Assembly: GCA_017546455.1 (NCBI GenBank)
Contig: JAFYWY010000068.1
Location: forward strand, 1 to 42,492
Length of the DNA stretch: 42,492 bases
Direction: 5' to 3'
From: Opitutales bacterium
Lineage (GTDB): Bacteria > Verrucomicrobiota > Verrucomicrobiia > Opitutales > UBA953
The position numbers and the translations under genes were made by a program. A model generated the notes under the pieces. The model did no database searches, had not been told where the DNA came from, and saw only the letters and a list, made by a program, of their open reading frames with translations. Position 1 is the first letter of the stretch; every line of letters begins with the position of its first letter. Of the stretch, positions 18,802 through 40,476 are shown one piece after another.

Positions 18802-19560
18802 TTACGCTTTCTTGTGGCCCTTCAAAAACTTGTAGGCGAGATAAATGCCAAAAAGCGCGGCACAAATCAGAATCGCCCACGAAAGTTCGCGGCTATAGCG
18901 GTTGATGATTTCCTGTTGCCCGTGGGCATAGTAACCGACAACGGCAAGGATAACGTTCCAAATCATCGCCCCGAGCGAAGTAAAAATCACAAACGGCAAC
19001 ATGCGCATGCGCGCGATGCCGGCGGGAATACTGATCAGCTGGCGAACAACGGGCACCAGACGCCCGAAGAAAGTCGAAGAAATCCCGTATTTGCGGAAGA
19101 AGATCTCCGATTTTTCGACTTTCTCACGATCCACCAGGCAAAGGCTTCCCAAGCGGGATTCGGCAAACCAATTGACGAGCGGACGCCCGAAAAACAACGC
19201 CAAATAGTAATTAATCAGCGCCCCGAACAACGCGCCGACCGTCGCCGCCGCGATAACGAGCCCGATGTTCACCCAACGATTTTCCGTAACATAGAGCGAA
19301 CTCTCGGGATTGCAGGCCGCATAGGCCGCCGGCGGCACGACAACCTCCGACGGAAACGGAATAAAGGAGCTCTCCACCGTCATCAGCAAAGCGACGGTGC
19401 CGTAGTTCAAATTTTCCGCATACCATGCCACGACCTTCTCGGGCAGGGATTTTTCCGCGGAAATTTCCTCCGCGGGCGCCGCCGAAGCAGGCACTTCCGC
19501 GTTCAACGGCGCTAAAAACGCCGCGAACGCGAAAATCAAAAGCGCCAATCGTTGCTTCAT
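18802..19560 (-). CDS. DedA family membrane protein
   Basis: A 252-residue membrane protein. It begins with a signal-peptide-like segment (MKQRLALLIFAFAAFLAPLNAEVPA) and a short Ala/Glu-rich linker, which is unusual because most DedA proteins start directly with the membrane domain. The domain carries the family acidic residues in LLMTVESSFIPFPSEVVVPP, the GALFGALINYYLALFFGRP segment, and the Arg motif FFGRLVPVVRQLISIPAGIARM. DedA proteins include flippases that recycle undecaprenyl phosphate or move phosphatidylethanolamine, and they depend on proton motive force. It starts three bases after the trxB stop, so the two are cotranscribed. A second DedA domain occurs in the fusion protein at 36444. 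Confidence 0.9.
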   Translation of the reverse strand: MKQRLALLIFAFAAFLAPLNAEVPASAAPAEEISAEKSLPEKVVAWYAENLNYGTVALLMTVESSFIPFPSEVVVPPAAYAACNPESSLYVTENRWVNIGLVIAAATVGALFGALINYYLALFFGRPLVNWFAESRLGSLCLVDREKVEKSEIFFRKYGISSTFFGRLVPVVRQLISIPAGIARMRMLPFVIFTSLGAMIWNVILAVVGYYAHGQQEIINRYSRELSWAILICAALFGIYLAYKFLKGHKKA

Positions 19561-33950: not shown

Positions 33951-34589
33951 ATGAAGCATCTCCCGAATATTTTAACGCTGTCGCGAATTCCCCTGCTATT
34001 CGTCATCGTCACGCTACTCTGCTTCCCGGTAAAATTCGGCGATACGCTCGCATTCGTTCTCTTTATGATCGCAGCCGTCTCCGACTGGCTCGACGGCTAC
34101 ATCGCGCGGAAAGTCGGCGCCGTCTCCAACTTCGGCAAGCTCATGGACGCGCTGACGGATAAAATCATCATGGTCGGACTCTTTGTTGCCCTGCTCGCCC
34201 TGCGCTGGAAGCTACCCGACGCCTACGGCAATGCCGCAAGCGAGCTCGAAACCCTGCTCCCGCAACACTGTATCCTGCTGGTTATGGTCATTATTTGTCG
34301 TGAATTCCTGATTACGGGTCTTCGCTTGGTCGCCGCCAGCAACGGAATCGTTCTCGCCGCGGAAAAGGCCGGGAAAATCAAGACCGCCTTACAGATGGTC
34401 TCCATGTCGCTGCTTTTGGCCGCCCAAGCACTCGCAACCGACTGGAATAATTTCCTTCCGACAGAGCTGATTGCGTGGGCGCGCGAACTCGGGCTTTGGA
34501 CCTTCTACGCTGCCGTTCTGCTGACGATTTACTCCGGAACCGGCTACCTCATCCGCAATCGCAAAATCTTTCTCGGCGACGCCGTATAA
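33951..34589 (+). CDS. pgsA: CDP-diacylglycerol--glycerol-3-phosphate 3-phosphatidyltransferase
   Basis: A 212-residue membrane enzyme that makes phosphatidylglycerophosphate. The CDP-alcohol phosphotransferase motif D-x2-D-G-x2-A-R-x8-G-x3-D-x3-D is complete: D45, D48, G49, A52, R53, G62, D66 and D70, in SDWLDGYIARKVGAVSNFG followed by KLMDALTDK. The N-terminus (MKHLPNILTLSRIPLL) is typical of PgsA. Further hydrophobic helices follow. The insertion around residues 95-105 (PDAYGNAASELETLLPQH) is longer than in E. coli. The pgpA gene, coding for the next enzyme of the pathway, starts five bases after its stop. Confidence 0.94.
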   Translation: MKHLPNILTLSRIPLLFVIVTLLCFPVKFGDTLAFVLFMIAAVSDWLDGYIARKVGAVSNFGKLMDALTDKIIMVGLFVALLALRWKLPDAYGNAASELETLLPQHCILLVMVIICREFLITGLRLVAASNGIVLAAEKAGKIKTALQMVSMSLLLAAQALATDWNNFLPTELIAWARELGLWTFYAAVLLTIYSGTGYLIRNRKIFLGDAV

Positions 34590-34594
34590 AAAAA

Positions 34595-35122
34595 ATGAGT
34601 TTCTTTCAATCCGCATCCGGACAAAAACTGCTCGCCGCCATCGCCACGCTCGGTCCCGTCGGCCGTCTGCTTCCCGCCCCGGGGACCTGGGGCTCGCTCC
34701 TCGGCGTCGTCTTCTATTATTACGCGTTCCAAAAAACGGGTCTTAATACGACGGAAACCCTCCTTCAATTCGTCATCTTCGCGGCTCTCCTCGTCGTTTG
34801 CGCCGTCCCAATTTGCGAAGCCGGGGAAAAAGTCCTCGGCAAGAGCGATCCGGGCGAAGTCAATTTTGACGAATTCGCCGTCATCCCTGTCTGCTTCGCC
34901 GGCCTCGGCAACGCAATCGACTGCGGACCCGCCGGAACGCTTTCGTGGCTGGCCGCCGGCTTTGTCCTCTTCCGCTTCTTCGACATCGTCAAGCCGTGGA
35001 AAATCAAAGAACTCCAAAAGCTCAAGGGCGGATTCGGAGTCGTTGCGGACGATTTCGCCGCCGCGCTCGCCACCTGCGCCTGCCTTTGGGCGGTCAACGG
35101 CATAATCTTAATTTTTAGCTAA
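34595..35122 (+). CDS. pgpA: Phosphatidylglycerophosphatase A
   Basis: A 175-residue membrane phosphatase that converts phosphatidylglycerophosphate to phosphatidylglycerol. It has the family motif PAPGTWGSLLGVV (residues 27-39) and the catalytic block SDPGEVNFDEFAV, where D85, D92 and E93 match the DxxxxxxDE metal-binding residues of PgpA. Hydrophobic helices surround both. I chose ATG 34595; the frame runs back to 34475, but that part overlaps pgsA and is not PgpA-like. Adjacent pgsA produces its substrate, and the short gap implies cotranscription. Confidence 0.92.
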   Translation: MSFFQSASGQKLLAAIATLGPVGRLLPAPGTWGSLLGVVFYYYAFQKTGLNTTETLLQFVIFAALLVVCAVPICEAGEKVLGKSDPGEVNFDEFAVIPVCFAGLGNAIDCGPAGTLSWLAAGFVLFRFFDIVKPWKIKELQKLKGGFGVVADDFAAALATCACLWAVNGIILIFS

Positions 35123-35718: not shown

Positions 35719-35756
35719 AAACCGGAAGCTGCAAACGCAACTTCCGGTTTTTTGTT
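35719..35756 (+). terminator. Rho-independent terminator of the hypothetical gene
   Basis: AACCGGAAG / CTTCCGGTT (35721-35729 and 35742-35750) with a 12-base loop and a following T-run. Confidence 0.85.
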
Positions 35757-35774
35757 TCCTCCCATCCCGAGGCA

Positions 35775-35810
35775 CAAAAAAACGTCCCCGAAATCCGGAG
35801 ACGTTTTTTT
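35775..35810. terminator. Bidirectional rho-independent terminator
   Basis: CGTCCCCG / CGGAGACG (35783-35790 and 35796-35803) form an eight-pair stem with one wobble pair. It has A residues before and T residues after, and lies five bases beyond the Rrf2 gene stop. Confidence 0.8.
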
Positions 35811-35814
35811 AGCC

Positions 35815-36306
35815 TTAAGCTTCTTTGGCGGCCTTAGGCTTAGCCGCTTTCTTTTTAGTCGAGCAAGCCCGGCGAGCCTTTTTCGTCGGGCAAGCATCGG
35901 CTCCGCCCTTGGCGAGATCTTCCAAGGTCGTCGAACTCAGATAGCCCAGAACCAAATCGTTCAATTTTTCCCAAAACGGCAGCGTCGTACACTTTTCACG
36001 GAGCGGACAATTGTTTTCGGGAGTCGAAAGACAGGCCACCGGAGAAAGGCTGCATTCCGTCGCCGCCAAAATATCGGCGACCGTGTATTCTTTCGCCTTG
36101 CGCGTCAGGCAATAGCCGCCGTGCGCGCCGCGAACGCTTACCAGCAAATCGGCCTGGCAGAGGCGGATTACAATTTGTTCGAGATACTTAACAGAAATTT
36201 CCTGGCGTGCCGCGATTTCCTTAAGATTAATACAGGCATCGTCTCCGTGGCTGGCGAGGTCAATCATGAAGCGCAATGCGTAACGTCCTTTTGTCGAGAT
36301 AATCAT
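35815..36306 (-). CDS. Rrf2/IscR-family transcriptional regulator with Lys/Ala-rich tail
   Basis: A 163-residue regulator from ATG 36306 (MIISTKGRYALRFMIDLA, the standard Rrf2 start). The winged helix spans residues 1-80, with INLKEIAARQEISVKYLEQI as the helix-turn-helix and VRGAHGGYCLTRKA as the wing. Three cysteines, C92, C100 and C106, match the positions of the iron-sulfur ligands of IscR (C92, C98, C104), so it likely senses Fe-S status or redox/NO. The C-terminus is unusual: after the normal domain end near residue 133 there is a tail of about 30 residues rich in Lys and Ala (KKARRAC...KKKAAKPKAAKEA) with two further Cys. AAGGAG lies 13 bases before the start, farther than ideal. No isc/suf genes are nearby. 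Confidence 0.87.
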   Translation of the reverse strand: MIISTKGRYALRFMIDLASHGDDACINLKEIAARQEISVKYLEQIVIRLCQADLLVSVRGAHGGYCLTRKAKEYTVADILAATECSLSPVACLSTPENNCPLREKCTTLPFWEKLNDLVLGYLSSTTLEDLAKGGADACPTKKARRACSTKKKAAKPKAAKEA

Positions 36307-36443
36307 AGATTCACTTTTACTCCTTACGCTTTTATTGATACAAAACTTTTCCGATAGAATCAATCAATTTTATACATCTTCTAAAAAAAACGTTCCCGAG
36401 CGCCTAAAAACGCGCTAAACTCGGAGGATAATTTTTGTGAACG

Positions 36444-39353
36444 ATGCCCCCTAAAACAACATCCGAGAAAAATTTGTGGCAACGCCTTCCCGTCCGCTGG
36501 CGGGTAATTTTCATGATCGCCGCCCTCATCGGCGCCTCCTACGCCGTGCGTCACGCATTCCCGATGACACCCTCGCTACGCGACGGACAGACATTCGCGG
36601 ACATCAAGGCGCTCAGTGTGGAAACCGTTTTCGAAACTCCCGACGCCGCGGAAAAAGCCATCTCGCCGCAAAACCGGAAGAAAATTGCCGAAGCGACCAA
36701 GGACAAACCGCGCAAAGCGCGCGTCAGCGGCGTTTACGTTTCCAAGCTCGTGGAAACCGGCGAAAATGTCCGCATCGCCTACAAAGAATTTCGCAACACG
36801 GAACCGACGCCCTACGCCCGACCCGACAAAACGCCGGCAGAAGAGGCTTCGGCAAAAGAAAAAGCGGAAAGGCTGCTCCACGACTCCATTGACGCCGCTA
36901 AGAAAGTTTGGAAAGACCTGACGAGCGAAAATCAGGCCCCCGTGCTCCTAATTCACGGCGTAGGCAGTGACGGCTCGCAGCTCGATGCGCTTGCGGAAGC
37001 GCTCGTACAGCAAGGCGTTGAACGCGTCATCGTTCCCGACCTTCCGGGCGCCGGAGCCAGCCAACGCGAACTCGACGACTACTCGATCGAAGCTTCCGCC
37101 GGCATGCTCTACGCCCTGCTCGACAAGTTGGAGATTCCGGCGGTGAACGTCCTCGGTTTCGGCGAAGGCGGCGGCGTTGCCGTTTTCATGGCCCACCAGC
37201 AGGCGATGCGCGTCAAATCCCTCGCTCTCGTTTCCTCCGTCGGGGCTCAGGAATTTGAGCTGCTCGGCAATCATATCGTCAACAAAATCGTTTACACGTT
37301 CCATTTGGGCTTTTTCAAAATCGCGCAGGACGTGCTCCCGCACTTCGGTCTGATGGATCGCGGCAATATCAACAAAGCCTATGCACGCGTGCTTTGGGAT
37401 TCCGATATCAGCGAATTGAAAAAATATATCCGCGAATGGAACGGACCGACCTACATCGCACACGGGAAAGACGATTTACTCGCCTCGTTCGCCTCGGCGC
37501 AATATTCCGCCGCACTTGCCCCGCAAGCCCAAACTTATTTCTGCGACGGAGGCCACTACGCCCCGCTGGACAACACGCAAGCTCTTGCCGACAACTACGC
37601 GAATTTCCTCAAGCAGCTGGACACCCCGGCTAAAATCAAAAAGCTCTCCCGTACGGAACAATCCGTACCCGCCGACGGCAATTACACTTATCCGACGATT
37701 GAACCCGCCGGCGGTGCGCGCGTCGTTGTCCTCATGCTCATCATTTTGGTCTGCACCTTCGTCGCGGAAGACCCTACCTGCCTCGCTGCAGGCTTGCTCG
37801 TCGCCCAAGGCCTCATCGGCTTCATCCCCGCTTGCGTTGCCTGCCTTGTCGGCATTTTCATCGGCGACTTGGTGCTCTACCTCATCGGCCGCTTCCTCGG
37901 ACGCCCGATTCTGCGCAAGCCGCCGCTGAAGTGGCTCGTCTCGGAACAGCAAATCGACGAAATGTCGGAGCGCTTTTCCAAGAACCCGAAAGGCCTGGCG
38001 CTCATCGTCTCGTCACGCTTCATCCCCGGCTCCCGCGTCCCGACCTTCGTCGCTGCCGGCATCATGAAGCTGGACTGGCATAAGCTGATTTTCCTCTTCT
38101 TCATTGCCGCCGCGCTCTGGACGCCGCCGCTGATTCTGCTCGCGGAATACGTCGGCGCCAGCGTCATCGAGCAATTCAAGGAATGGCACCACAACGCCGC
38201 CTGGATTGTCATCGGCGCCATTCTCGCGCTGTATCTGATCAGCCACTACATCATCCCCGCGTTTACCTGGCGCGGCCGCCGCCGCCACGTCATGACGCGC
38301 CGCCAAATCACGCGCCACGAATTCTGGCCGCATTTTATTCTGAACTTCCCGGTTCTCTTCCAATTCCTCTGGCTCGGCATCGTCTATCGCTCGTTCACCG
38401 TCTTCACGCTCGCCAATCGTGCATTCGGCCCCGACGGCGGCATTCCCGCAGCCTCCAAATTCGATATCTATAAAAAATTCCTCGGGACGAGCTCCGTCGG
38501 CGTAAAGACCGTCCGCATTCCCGCCGAAAAAAATTTGGATACGCGCTGGGAAAACGCGCTGAAAGTGCTTAAGCGGGAACAAATCGACTTCCCCTGCATC
38601 ATCAAGCCGGAAATCGGCGACGGCGGGATCGGCGTGTATGTCGCACCATCCGCCGCACACCTGCGCGCCTGGCTCGATGCGAATGTGGATGATGCCGTGG
38701 CACAGGAATACATCAGCGGCAACGAATACGAAGTTATCTGGGCACGCCGCCCGGGACGCAAGGAAGGCCAAATCCTCTCCGTCATTCAGAAAGATTTCGT
38801 CCGCGTCAAAGGCGACGGCGAACGTAAACTGGAAGACCTCATTTGGGCGGACGACCACGGCGTCTGCAACGGCAAGCTTTTCTCGAAGCAGAACTTCCGC
38901 AAAGCGGACATGGTGCTTGAACCCGGGAAATATTATCCCTTGGCTCCGACCGGTTCCCGCATTCGCGGCGCACGTTTCATCGCGCGTCCGGAACTGCGCG
39001 CAGGAACACTCTCGAAGGCCATCGACGCCCTCGCCGATGCCTGCGGTGAAGTCCACTACGTCTGCCTCGACATCCGTGCGGCGAGCGACGAAGCGCTTTC
39101 CAACGGCGAAGCCATCCGCATCACGAGCGTCAAAGGTGCCGGCGCTATTTCCTCCGTACTCTACGACGGCTATGTACGCATGGGCAAGGCCTACTCCGTC
39201 ATCTACAAGCAGATGAATTTCTGCTTCTCCGTAGGCGCCGAATTACGGGACGACCACCACGTCCGGGCCGGTATCTCGGCATGGAAACTCTTCGAGATCT
39301 GGGGTACGGCCCGCGGCCGCTCCGACAACTACGTCAAGGAACCGGCGGAATAG
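36444..39353 (+). CDS. Fusion protein: degenerate alpha/beta-hydrolase + DedA membrane domain + ATP-grasp-like domain
   Basis: A 969-residue three-part membrane protein. A signal anchor at about residues 19-38 leads to a soluble alpha/beta-hydrolase domain (about 160-395). There the nucleophile elbow reads GFGEGG, with G240 where the catalytic Ser is expected (GxSxG), while D343 (HGKDD) and H371 (GGHYAP) are kept. A DedA domain follows (about 425-605), with acidic residues E442 and D443 and the motif SSRFIPGSRVPTFVAAG containing R525 and R531. A basic stretch (about 610-625) and one more hydrophobic segment lead to an ATP-grasp-like domain (about 680-960), with CIIKPEIGDGGIGVYV (K721) and AQEYISGNEYEV (E755). 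By eye its late metal-binding E-x-N motif is replaced by S895-V-K897. By topology the hydrolase part should face the periplasm and the ATP-grasp part the cytoplasm. Function unknown. Confidence 0.8.
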   Translation: MPPKTTSEKNLWQRLPVRWRVIFMIAALIGASYAVRHAFPMTPSLRDGQTFADIKALSVETVFETPDAAEKAISPQNRKKIAEATKDKPRKARVSGVYVSKLVETGENVRIAYKEFRNTEPTPYARPDKTPAEEASAKEKAERLLHDSIDAAKKVWKDLTSENQAPVLLIHGVGSDGSQLDALAEALVQQGVERVIVPDLPGAGASQRELDDYSIEASAGMLYALLDKLEIPAVNVLGFGEGGGVAVFMAHQQAMRVKSLALVSSVGAQEFELLGNHIVNKIVYTFHLGFFKIAQDVLPHFGLMDRGNINKAYARVLWDSDISELKKYIREWNGPTYIAHGKDDLLASFASAQYSAALAPQAQTYFCDGGHYAPLDNTQALADNYANFLKQLDTPAKIKKLSRTEQSVPADGNYTYPTIEPAGGARVVVLMLIILVCTFVAEDPTCLAAGLLVAQGLIGFIPACVACLVGIFIGDLVLYLIGRFLGRPILRKPPLKWLVSEQQIDEMSERFSKNPKGLALIVSSRFIPGSRVPTFVAAGIMKLDWHKLIFLFFIAAALWTPPLILLAEYVGASVIEQFKEWHHNAAWIVIGAILALYLISHYIIPAFTWRGRRRHVMTRRQITRHEFWPHFILNFPVLFQFLWLGIVYRSFTVFTLANRAFGPDGGIPAASKFDIYKKFLGTSSVGVKTVRIPAEKNLDTRWENALKVLKREQIDFPCIIKPEIGDGGIGVYVAPSAAHLRAWLDANVDDAVAQEYISGNEYEVIWARRPGRKEGQILSVIQKDFVRVKGDGERKLEDLIWADDHGVCNGKLFSKQNFRKADMVLEPGKYYPLAPTGSRIRGARFIARPELRAGTLSKAIDALADACGEVHYVCLDIRAASDEALSNGEAIRITSVKGAGAISSVLYDGYVRMGKAYSVIYKQMNFCFSVGAELRDDHHVRAGISAWKLFEIWGTARGRSDNYVKEPAE

Positions 39354-39405: not shown

Positions 39406-39414
39406 GTACAGGTG

Positions 39415-40476
39415 TTAAGCTTTAATCCTTCTCCGGCGTCTGCCCGTTGCCATCACCACGGCCAGACTTCCGGCGAGAAGCCCGAAGCTCGACGGCTCCG
39501 GAATCGCCGCCAAGGTCCACCCCATCGCTTCCAACAAAAGCAGTTCGTGCTCGTTCAATTCACGGCGAATGGTGCCGTTAGCGATCGCGTAATACATCAG
39601 CGCATCCCCGTCCCTGCCCTCCGCAGTCTCCAAGTGAGCCATCGAAGAGCCGTCATCGTGCAAGGCGGGATTGTAAACCTCCAGGAAAGAAAGCTCCGTT
39701 TCGCCGACTTTCAGAAAATACTCTTTGCCCGGCGCGTAAGTCTCCGTCGCGGAATAGGCCGTCCAGCCGGGAACCGCTGCAACATCCTGAGCCTCGAACA
39801 GATTAGTAACCTCGCCGCTACCGTCCTTACTCGCAATCAGACTGTCGAATGTCGTAATCAGCGCAAACGAGGCTTCCAGTGTATTCAAAACGCGCCAGCC
39901 CGTTTCGGTACACAGCGTATTAAATCCCATGATGTGACCGATCTCGTGCGTCAGCACACTCTGCAGATCGTACTGATTACTCCGGATTCCGCTCGTCGAT
40001 TCTCCGTAATAGTAATCGGCATCTTTAGAAAGTACGACCAGGGCGCGGGTTTCATTGCTCGAGTAATTGTACAGATTGCCGGTACCGGAAGTATTCCGCA
40101 GAGTCGCCTCCGCCCCGGAAAGCGTCAACCCGGAATACGGATCAAAGTACCAGGCATCCGCCGCACCGCCGAGCGCCCTCGGACCGAGGTCTTCCCAAAT
40201 GAAGACGATCTCGACACGCTCCGTCGCCTCGGTCGTAATGAGGCTGTTCCAGTAATTAAGCGAGCGTTCGACACAACTTCGCATCTCCTCACTCCAATCC
40301 TGCGCGCCCGTGTAATTGCCGTAATGAGCGGAACTGAGCTGATCCCCGCTCCCGTAAAAAGAGATGTTAAAATTTCCGCAACTAAGCGTTTCAATTGCCG
40401 CCGGCGCGGAAAGCGCTCCGCCTAAACCCGCAAATATCAGGAAAGCGCTTATTGGTTTTGAGGTATTTCCGAGCAT
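39415..40476 (-). CDS. PEP-CTERM-sorted zinc metalloprotease-like protein
   Basis: A 353-residue exported protein. It begins with a signal peptide (ISAFLIFAGLGGALSAPAA). The central domain has a zinc-binding motif LTHEIGHIMGFNT, with H177, E178 and H181; the position where metzincins have a third His or Asp is Thr, so the third ligand must come from elsewhere, as in other HEIGHxxGF proteases. A Met-turn-like DALMYY follows. The C-terminus is a PEP-CTERM sorting signal: IPEPSSF, a hydrophobic helix GLLAGSLAVVMA, then RRRRR. In Gram-negative bacteria such signals are processed by exosortase (EpsH) and tie proteins to the cell surface or exopolysaccharide. No exosortase gene is in the window. 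Confidence 0.87.
   Translation of the reverse strand: MLGNTSKPISAFLIFAGLGGALSAPAAIETLSCGNFNISFYGSGDQLSSAHYGNYTGAQDWSEEMRSCVERSLNYWNSLITTEATERVEIVFIWEDLGPRALGGAADAWYFDPYSGLTLSGAEATLRNTSGTGNLYNYSSNETRALVVLSKDADYYYGESTSGIRSNQYDLQSVLTHEIGHIMGFNTLCTETGWRVLNTLEASFALITTFDSLIASKDGSGEVTNLFEAQDVAAVPGWTAYSATETYAPGKEYFLKVGETELSFLEVYNPALHDDGSSMAHLETAEGRDGDALMYYAIANGTIRRELNEHELLLLEAMGWTLAAIPEPSSFGLLAGSLAVVMATGRRRRRIKA

Follow-up and report, generated by a model that had tools for sequence, protein, structure and literature searches.

A DedA-type membrane protein fused to probable pseudo-hydrolase and pseudo-ATP-grasp domains in Opitutales

We analysed a 42,492-nucleotide stretch of DNA from an Opitutales bacterium (hereafter the window), which is a whole contig of a 2.15-Mb genome that is 98% complete, and here describe a single gene at 36444..39353 on the forward strand. 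Its open reading frame (ORF) encodes 969 residues with no internal stop and joins a transmembrane helix, an alpha/beta-hydrolase domain, a DedA core and an ATP-grasp-like domain. Throughout the window's own family (f1), both outer domains have lost active-site residues that intact relatives keep, and comparison with these relatives makes the inactivation of both domains well supported. We propose a DedA-type flippase or scramblase with a dead periplasmic hydrolase and a dead cytosolic ATP-grasp domain, a protein that descends from a fusion with three activities and may now act as a regulated flippase. We put the probability of this reading at about 0.5.

Fusion architecture and the residues lost

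The three-domain fusion described in a first-pass annotation of this DNA is real, and every residue named there was found at its position. Pfam identifies Abhydrolase_1 at residues 166-272 (4.7e-18) and VTT_dom/DedA at 451-565 (6.3e-15), with weak, sub-threshold ATP-grasp matches at 697-761; NCBIfam adds a UptA-type DedA and several ATP-grasp ligases, all under curated cut-offs. Confident structure models were obtained for the f1 protein and for one intact relative, and the AlphaFold2 model of the 969-residue protein (65 aligned homologues) has a mean pLDDT of 89.7 and a pTM of 0.78. The fusion protein occurs in 72 of 77 sampled f1 genomes, with frames that are full length except at contig ends or stretches of N, and in 59 of 296 other genomes of the order. 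A chance fusion or a frame artefact is excluded. Outside f1 the protein takes the form hydrolase-DedA-ATP-grasp, DedA-ATP-grasp or ATP-grasp alone, and further families, within the order and in the wider phylum, carry the fusion patchily. Therefore, the three-domain order is old and not a local accident, and the first-pass view that these modules are normally separate had to be dropped. Two close homologues (L032 and L033) are ~65% identical to the window protein; the contig of the latter ('Coprobacillus sp.') is probably mis-binned.

The alpha/beta-hydrolase domain covers residues 45-398 (36576..37637; all features of the gene are on the forward strand). Residues 49-398 match the Thermogutta esterase 4uhd (Z 27.8, rmsd 2.0 over 239 residues), and in PDB fold searches with the whole models only hydrolases were among the matches listed, the hydrolase domain filling the list. 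We compared 40 f1 proteins with 23 three-domain homologues from outside f1 that were chosen for an intact hydrolase. At the nucleophile column all 23 intact homologues have Ser whereas all 40 f1 proteins have a newly fixed Gly, which is G240 in the window protein (37161..37163), as first noted. No substitute nucleophile (Ser, Cys or Asp) was found at the elbow, and the neighbouring position 241 is variable. The catalytic Asp is D344 (37473..37475), which is conserved in 23/23 intact homologues and 38/40 f1 proteins, and not D343, a position that varies among intact homologues. H371 (37554..37556), correctly reported as kept in the window protein, is His in every intact homologue; f1 is divided between His (20/40) and Arg (20/40). 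The domain thus shares with alpha/beta-hydrolase esterases the whole fold and, in the window protein, the catalytic Asp and His, but differs from them in the Gly found in all f1 proteins and in inserts at residues ~65-96 and 118-160.

The nucleophile has been lost several more times outside f1 (in f14 g92, in f4 g41 and in phylum family f44). In L183, L184 and L186 of f44, and in L104-L107, L114 and L118 of f14 g92, the triad was lost independently, with the E-x-N metal-ligand pair of the ATP-grasp domain still in place; the hydrolase has thus died repeatedly. Apparent losses of Ser in two-domain proteins (L109, L112, L113, L116, L117, L120, L122 and L123) are misaligned non-hydrolase residues and were not counted; because the tree reconstruction included them, its figure of 8 changes for Ser is too high.

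The ATP-grasp-like domain (residues 640-960, 38361..39323) keeps the nucleotide-site motifs of its fold (Lys, G-rich loop and Glu) and lacks the E-x-N metal ligands. E-x-N is intact in 54/54 proteins from outside f1, including the forms without a hydrolase and those with ATP-grasp alone, versus 0/40 in f1. S895-V-K897 of the window protein (39126..39134) does stand at these catalytic columns, as had been claimed. The Asn is lost in all 40 f1 proteins, but no single replacement motif is fixed: S-V-K or G-V-K is found in the window genus (the genus of the window genome, within f1), where Glu became Ser or Gly and Asn became Lys, and G-V-S, E-V-G, E-V-E and E-V-D also occur, the variants differing between genera. 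The family has further lost R727, R805, H839, D847 and E902, residues conserved at 96-100% elsewhere. K721 (38604..38606), Q754, E761 (38724..38726), K783 and D876 (39069..39071) are invariant in f1, and E763 is newly fixed in 40/40. K721 is indeed the nucleotide-site Lys; the ATP-grasp Glu is E761, invariant in 94/94 proteins, and not E755, which varies. In a maximum-likelihood tree from which the E-x-N columns were left out, f1 is one side of a single branch with a support of 100 and a length of 0.95, and E-x-N changes once, on this f1 stem.

A profile of the intact ATP-grasp family matches cyanophycin synthetase (2.6e-9) and Ddl, with no curated cut-off reached, and the nearest solved relatives of the fold are amide-bond formers. 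When the intact set was compared profile to profile with the Ddl of the window's genome, the alignment was of no use (probability 0.5), and the E-x-N assignment thus rests on the sequence motif, its conservation and how the strands are arranged in the models. Relative to ATP-grasp ligases such as cyanophycin synthetase, RimK and D-Ala ligase, f1 proteins keep the K, E and GDG motifs but lack the E-x-N metal pair and several substrate-side residues. A human ATP-grasp-type pseudoenzyme, TTLL12, also has a conserved ligase-fold domain with no detected activity and a proposed regulatory role (PMC3520985), but it is unrelated in protein and context and is not fused to a transporter.

Selection, the DedA core and membrane topology

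In close f1 pairs, the ratio of nonsynonymous to synonymous substitution rates (dN/dS) is mostly 0.03-0.13 in the hydrolase, 0.02-0.15 in ATP-grasp and 0.01-0.1 in DedA, values that are comparable to those of intact pairs and indicate purifying selection. Higher values are found for L036-L037 (0.43 in the hydrolase), for L022-L029 (0.25, at low dS) and for L030 (up to 0.40), whose diverged DedA stretch may be a local sequence error. These data bear on whether the gene is a decaying relic that has drifted since the loss of a DinB-TANGO2 pathway (described below). Variation of the E-x-N pair among f1 genera, replacement of His371 by Arg in half of f1 and the repeated death of the hydrolase elsewhere would all fit such drift. 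However, the gene persists in nearly all f1 genomes with frames that are nearly all full length, dN/dS is low in all three domains, the DedA core is invariant, and f1 has fixed G240 and E763 as new residues. We regard decay as very improbable and largely refuted, and take the f1 protein to be a double pseudoenzyme that has been kept. The first-pass suggestion that two former enzymes became binding or regulatory domains stands insofar as both descend from intact forms and have lost key residues while DedA was kept, and neither of the outcomes named there as refuting it was seen; its choices of D343 and E755 and its premise of separate modules needed the corrections given above.

The DedA/VTT core (residues 425-612, 37716..38279), which is supported by Pfam, NCBIfam and the model, is the most conserved part of the protein in f1. 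The acidic pair E442-D443 (37767..37772) and R525 and R531 (38016..38036; 40/40) are invariant in the family. The two Arg residues, at the second reentrant tip, have the spacing of Arg130 and Arg136 of YghB, which are essential in undecaprenyl phosphate (UndP) flippases (PMC10127716), and they align with the R-x5-R motif of a second DedA in the window. This second, ordinary DedA gene (18802-19560, reverse strand; VTT 1.7e-17) has the usual acidic and R-x5-R motifs and could supply canonical UndP flipping. The UndP flippases of COG0586 carry two acidic residues ~12 apart at the first reentrant tip (PMC10127716); in the first reentrant region of the window protein E442 and D443 are adjacent and position 454 is not acidic, the alignment being uncertain here. 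The four residues originally listed are all in place, and the acidic residue at +12 appears to be lacking. In sum, it resembles COG0586/UptA flippases in its VTT domain, its Arg spacing and its best NCBIfam match (UptA, 5.9e-17, under cut-off), and differs from them in the adjacent E-D, the apparent lack of the +12 residue and the fusion to two outer domains. A published survey of COG0586 fusions names rhodanese and PAP2 (PMC10127716); hydrolase and ATP-grasp fusions are not named there. Searching the PDB with the DedA core sequence gave nothing convincing.

From the positive-inside rule and the model, which has one N-terminal helix (residues 17-38, 36492..36557) and three DedA membrane helices, we predict that the N-terminus, loop 484-516 and the ATP-grasp domain are inside and that the hydrolase is outside. 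Positive charges precede the N-terminal helix, and Lys and Arg residues number 7 in loop 484-516, 7 in loop 604-630 and 1 in loop 570-584. This topology would place the hydrolase and ATP-grasp domains on opposite membrane faces, in line with the earlier proposal that they flank the transporter.

Two further explanations turn on the DedA core. In one, only the core matters, flipping UndP or phospholipid, and the outer domains are inert structural baggage. The conservation of DedA and its UptA-like best profile would agree with this, as would the loss or separation of the hydrolase and ATP-grasp domains in other lineages. However, dN/dS near 0.05-0.1 and newly fixed pocket residues are unexpected for baggage, truncation to DedA alone is not seen in f1 (though shortened forms exist elsewhere), and the genome has its second DedA; we find this explanation distinctly unlikely. 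In the other, the protein is a scaffold or receptor that joins periplasmic and cytosolic partners, with the DedA core as an anchor. Dead hydrolase folds do serve as binding domains elsewhere, for example in neuroligin-type proteins. Against a scaffold, E442, D443, R525 and R531 are invariant residues of the transporter type, which speaks for transport, and no conserved partner gene lies beside the fusion in f1; we judge it quite improbable.

Gene neighbourhoods of the intact relatives and of the window

The unexpected part of our analysis is the genomic setting of the intact relatives. In nearly all loci of the order outside f1, a same-strand TANGO2 gene (PF05742) lies upstream, as a rule immediately so, with a DinB-family gene of ~170 aa upstream of it in turn. 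In the order's genomes outside f1, presence of the ATP-grasp protein and of TANGO2 agree in 51 + 228 of 296, with 8 and 9 exceptions (Fisher 3e-39, kinship ignored, from two genome samples that overlap in part). Genomes without TANGO2 were also without DinB among those tested, and in four genomes (G261, G385, G392 and G503) DinB and TANGO2 are unlinked from the fusion yet still found together. Neither gene was found in any f1 genome searched, and nothing resembling them turned up in the window (DinB profile on the window; both by whole-genome search). The N-terminal M-C-T and the N-R-D-E, motifs of the proposed Cys Ntn-hydrolase, are invariant in five neighbour TANGO2 proteins, and human TANGO2 structures are matched at 3e-4. 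Published accounts of TANGO2 differ: one relates its Cys Ntn-hydrolase fold to N-acyl-amide hydrolases (PMC13044924), another reports acyl-CoA binding (PMC11867700), and a third gives it a part in heme trafficking (PMC10470608), the last of which has been challenged (PMC12782551). N-acyl amide chemistry would fit the Ntn-hydrolase reading as well as the acyl-CoA one.

Of 70 loci outside f1, 14 have an OlsB-type ornithine N-acyltransferase or a fused OlsF-type aminolipid synthase within ~10 kb (the matches are strong but under curated cut-offs), and in several of them (L110, L111, L112 and L122) this gene touches or overlaps that for DedA-ATP-grasp. A cluster of TANGO2, DinB, DedA-ATP-grasp and OlsB/OlsF recurs outside f1 (L110, L111, L112, L122, L130, L041, L099 and others), sometimes joined by YHS-domain and DoxX-like genes, and likely encodes an undescribed aminolipid pathway. 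Our literature search found no paper that joins TANGO2 with ATP-grasp or DedA with ornithine lipids, that describes this fusion, or that reports the TANGO2-DinB-OlsB/OlsF setting. The cargo may be lipid-linked, as the first-pass annotation also supposed, and the genomic context favours an amino-acid lipid as the ancestral one.

Some relatives without these partners show changes of their own. Broken or truncated DedA/ATP-grasp genes are found in three f14 genomes (L132 in G229, L133 in G327 and L131 in G289), all without TANGO2 and DinB, and in these genomes real decay seems to accompany the loss of partners. The DedA-ATP-grasp proteins L113 and L117 (f21 g62), likewise without TANGO2 and DinB, have KS for KP at the ATP-grasp Lys and GQ after E-x-N where SE is usual, possibly an independent step toward inactivation.

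In the window the fusion gene stands alone, between a divergent Rrf2-type regulator gene upstream (35815-36363, reverse strand) and a convergent PEP-CTERM/M10-like gene downstream (39415-40476, reverse strand). The forward-strand ORFs at 35752-36357 and 39412-40425 appear to be antisense shadows of these two genes, respectively. The pgsA/pgpA operon (33951-35122) was ruled out as context because the Rrf2 gene intervenes and synteny is not kept in the genus. At the contig end (40647-42492, reverse strand), a CcrM-like N6/N4 methyltransferase, a PDDEXK_11-type fragment and a partial Dam-type methyltransferase lie in DNA of lower G+C (0.43-0.50) and look like an acquired restriction-modification cluster.

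From a three-activity fusion to a regulated flippase

In the course of events that we propose, the ancestor was a three-activity fusion working with the DinB-family and TANGO2-type proteins. OlsB/OlsF would make an N-acyl amino-acid lipid, the cytosolic ATP-grasp ligase would modify or extend it, DedA would carry it through the inner membrane, and the hydrolase in the periplasm would trim or release it by removing an acyl or ester group. In f1, the DinB-TANGO2 partners and both catalytic centres would have been lost around one ancestral branch, whereas nearly every genome of the family kept the fusion. On the outer side, the pseudo-hydrolase most likely binds or gates the lipid now, or else a protein partner; on the inner side, the pseudo-ATP-grasp domain, with its nucleotide-side residues kept, would sense ATP/ADP or a ligand without turnover and so control flipping. 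A fuller version, which we offer only tentatively, is a Verrucomicrobiota-type pathway in which DinB, TANGO2 (as a Cys Ntn-hydrolase on N-acyl amides) and (hydrolase-)DedA-ATP-grasp make, flip and trim a peptide-extended OlsB/OlsF lipid, and which was dismantled in f1 to leave a nucleotide-sensing flippase with two pseudoenzyme domains. MprF and Dlt likewise couple cytosolic synthesis of an amino-acyl lipid or carrier with transfer across the membrane. They resemble the proposed ancestral logic but have different folds and neither a DedA nor an ATP-grasp domain.

Several observations weigh against a regulated flippase with two dead domains. The first reentrant motif appears to depart from the canonical UndP-flippase pattern, and flippase activity is assumed. 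No neighbour of the fusion gene is kept across the window genus, and f1 as a whole yielded no conserved operon partner. The window genus gave no OlsF-type synthase, which most of the other f1 genomes tested do have, and an ornithine-lipid cargo is therefore unlikely today in this genus. Some proteins outside f1 keep E-x-N in genomes without TANGO2 (G080, G108 and G516), so that partner loss does not force active-site loss; E-x-N loss being a single event, its link with TANGO2 loss is putative. Lastly, not all metal ligands are gone: D876, the remaining likely one, is kept, the Glu of E-x-N (position 895) is kept in 24/40 f1 proteins, and the E-V-E or E-V-D of a few members might still bind a metal. 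Together with the invariance of K721, Q754, E761 and K783, these retentions would suit an ATP-grasp domain that has kept its ligase activity by rearranging its metal ligands, only the hydrolase being dead. Yet the Asn is gone from all 40 proteins along with R727, R805, H839, D847 and E902, the residues at the pair differ between genera, and the window genus has replaced both Glu and Asn; we consider a live ligase unlikely. The regulated-flippase reading remains unproved and is the best available.

Lipids are moved by DedA proteins and by TMEM41B and VMP1, their human relatives, but little is known of what these proteins carry and how they are controlled. A DedA core joined covalently to domains on both faces, in a series that runs from intact to dead active sites, offers a direct route to the cargo and to the control of flipping. 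In addition, the TANGO2 of these loci is a bacterial relative of a human disease protein of disputed function. In these genomes it is strongly linked with N-acyl-amino-acid lipid synthases, a ligase fold that forms amides and a lipid flippase, which points to a role in lipid or amide chemistry, and such a role can be tested in bacteria.

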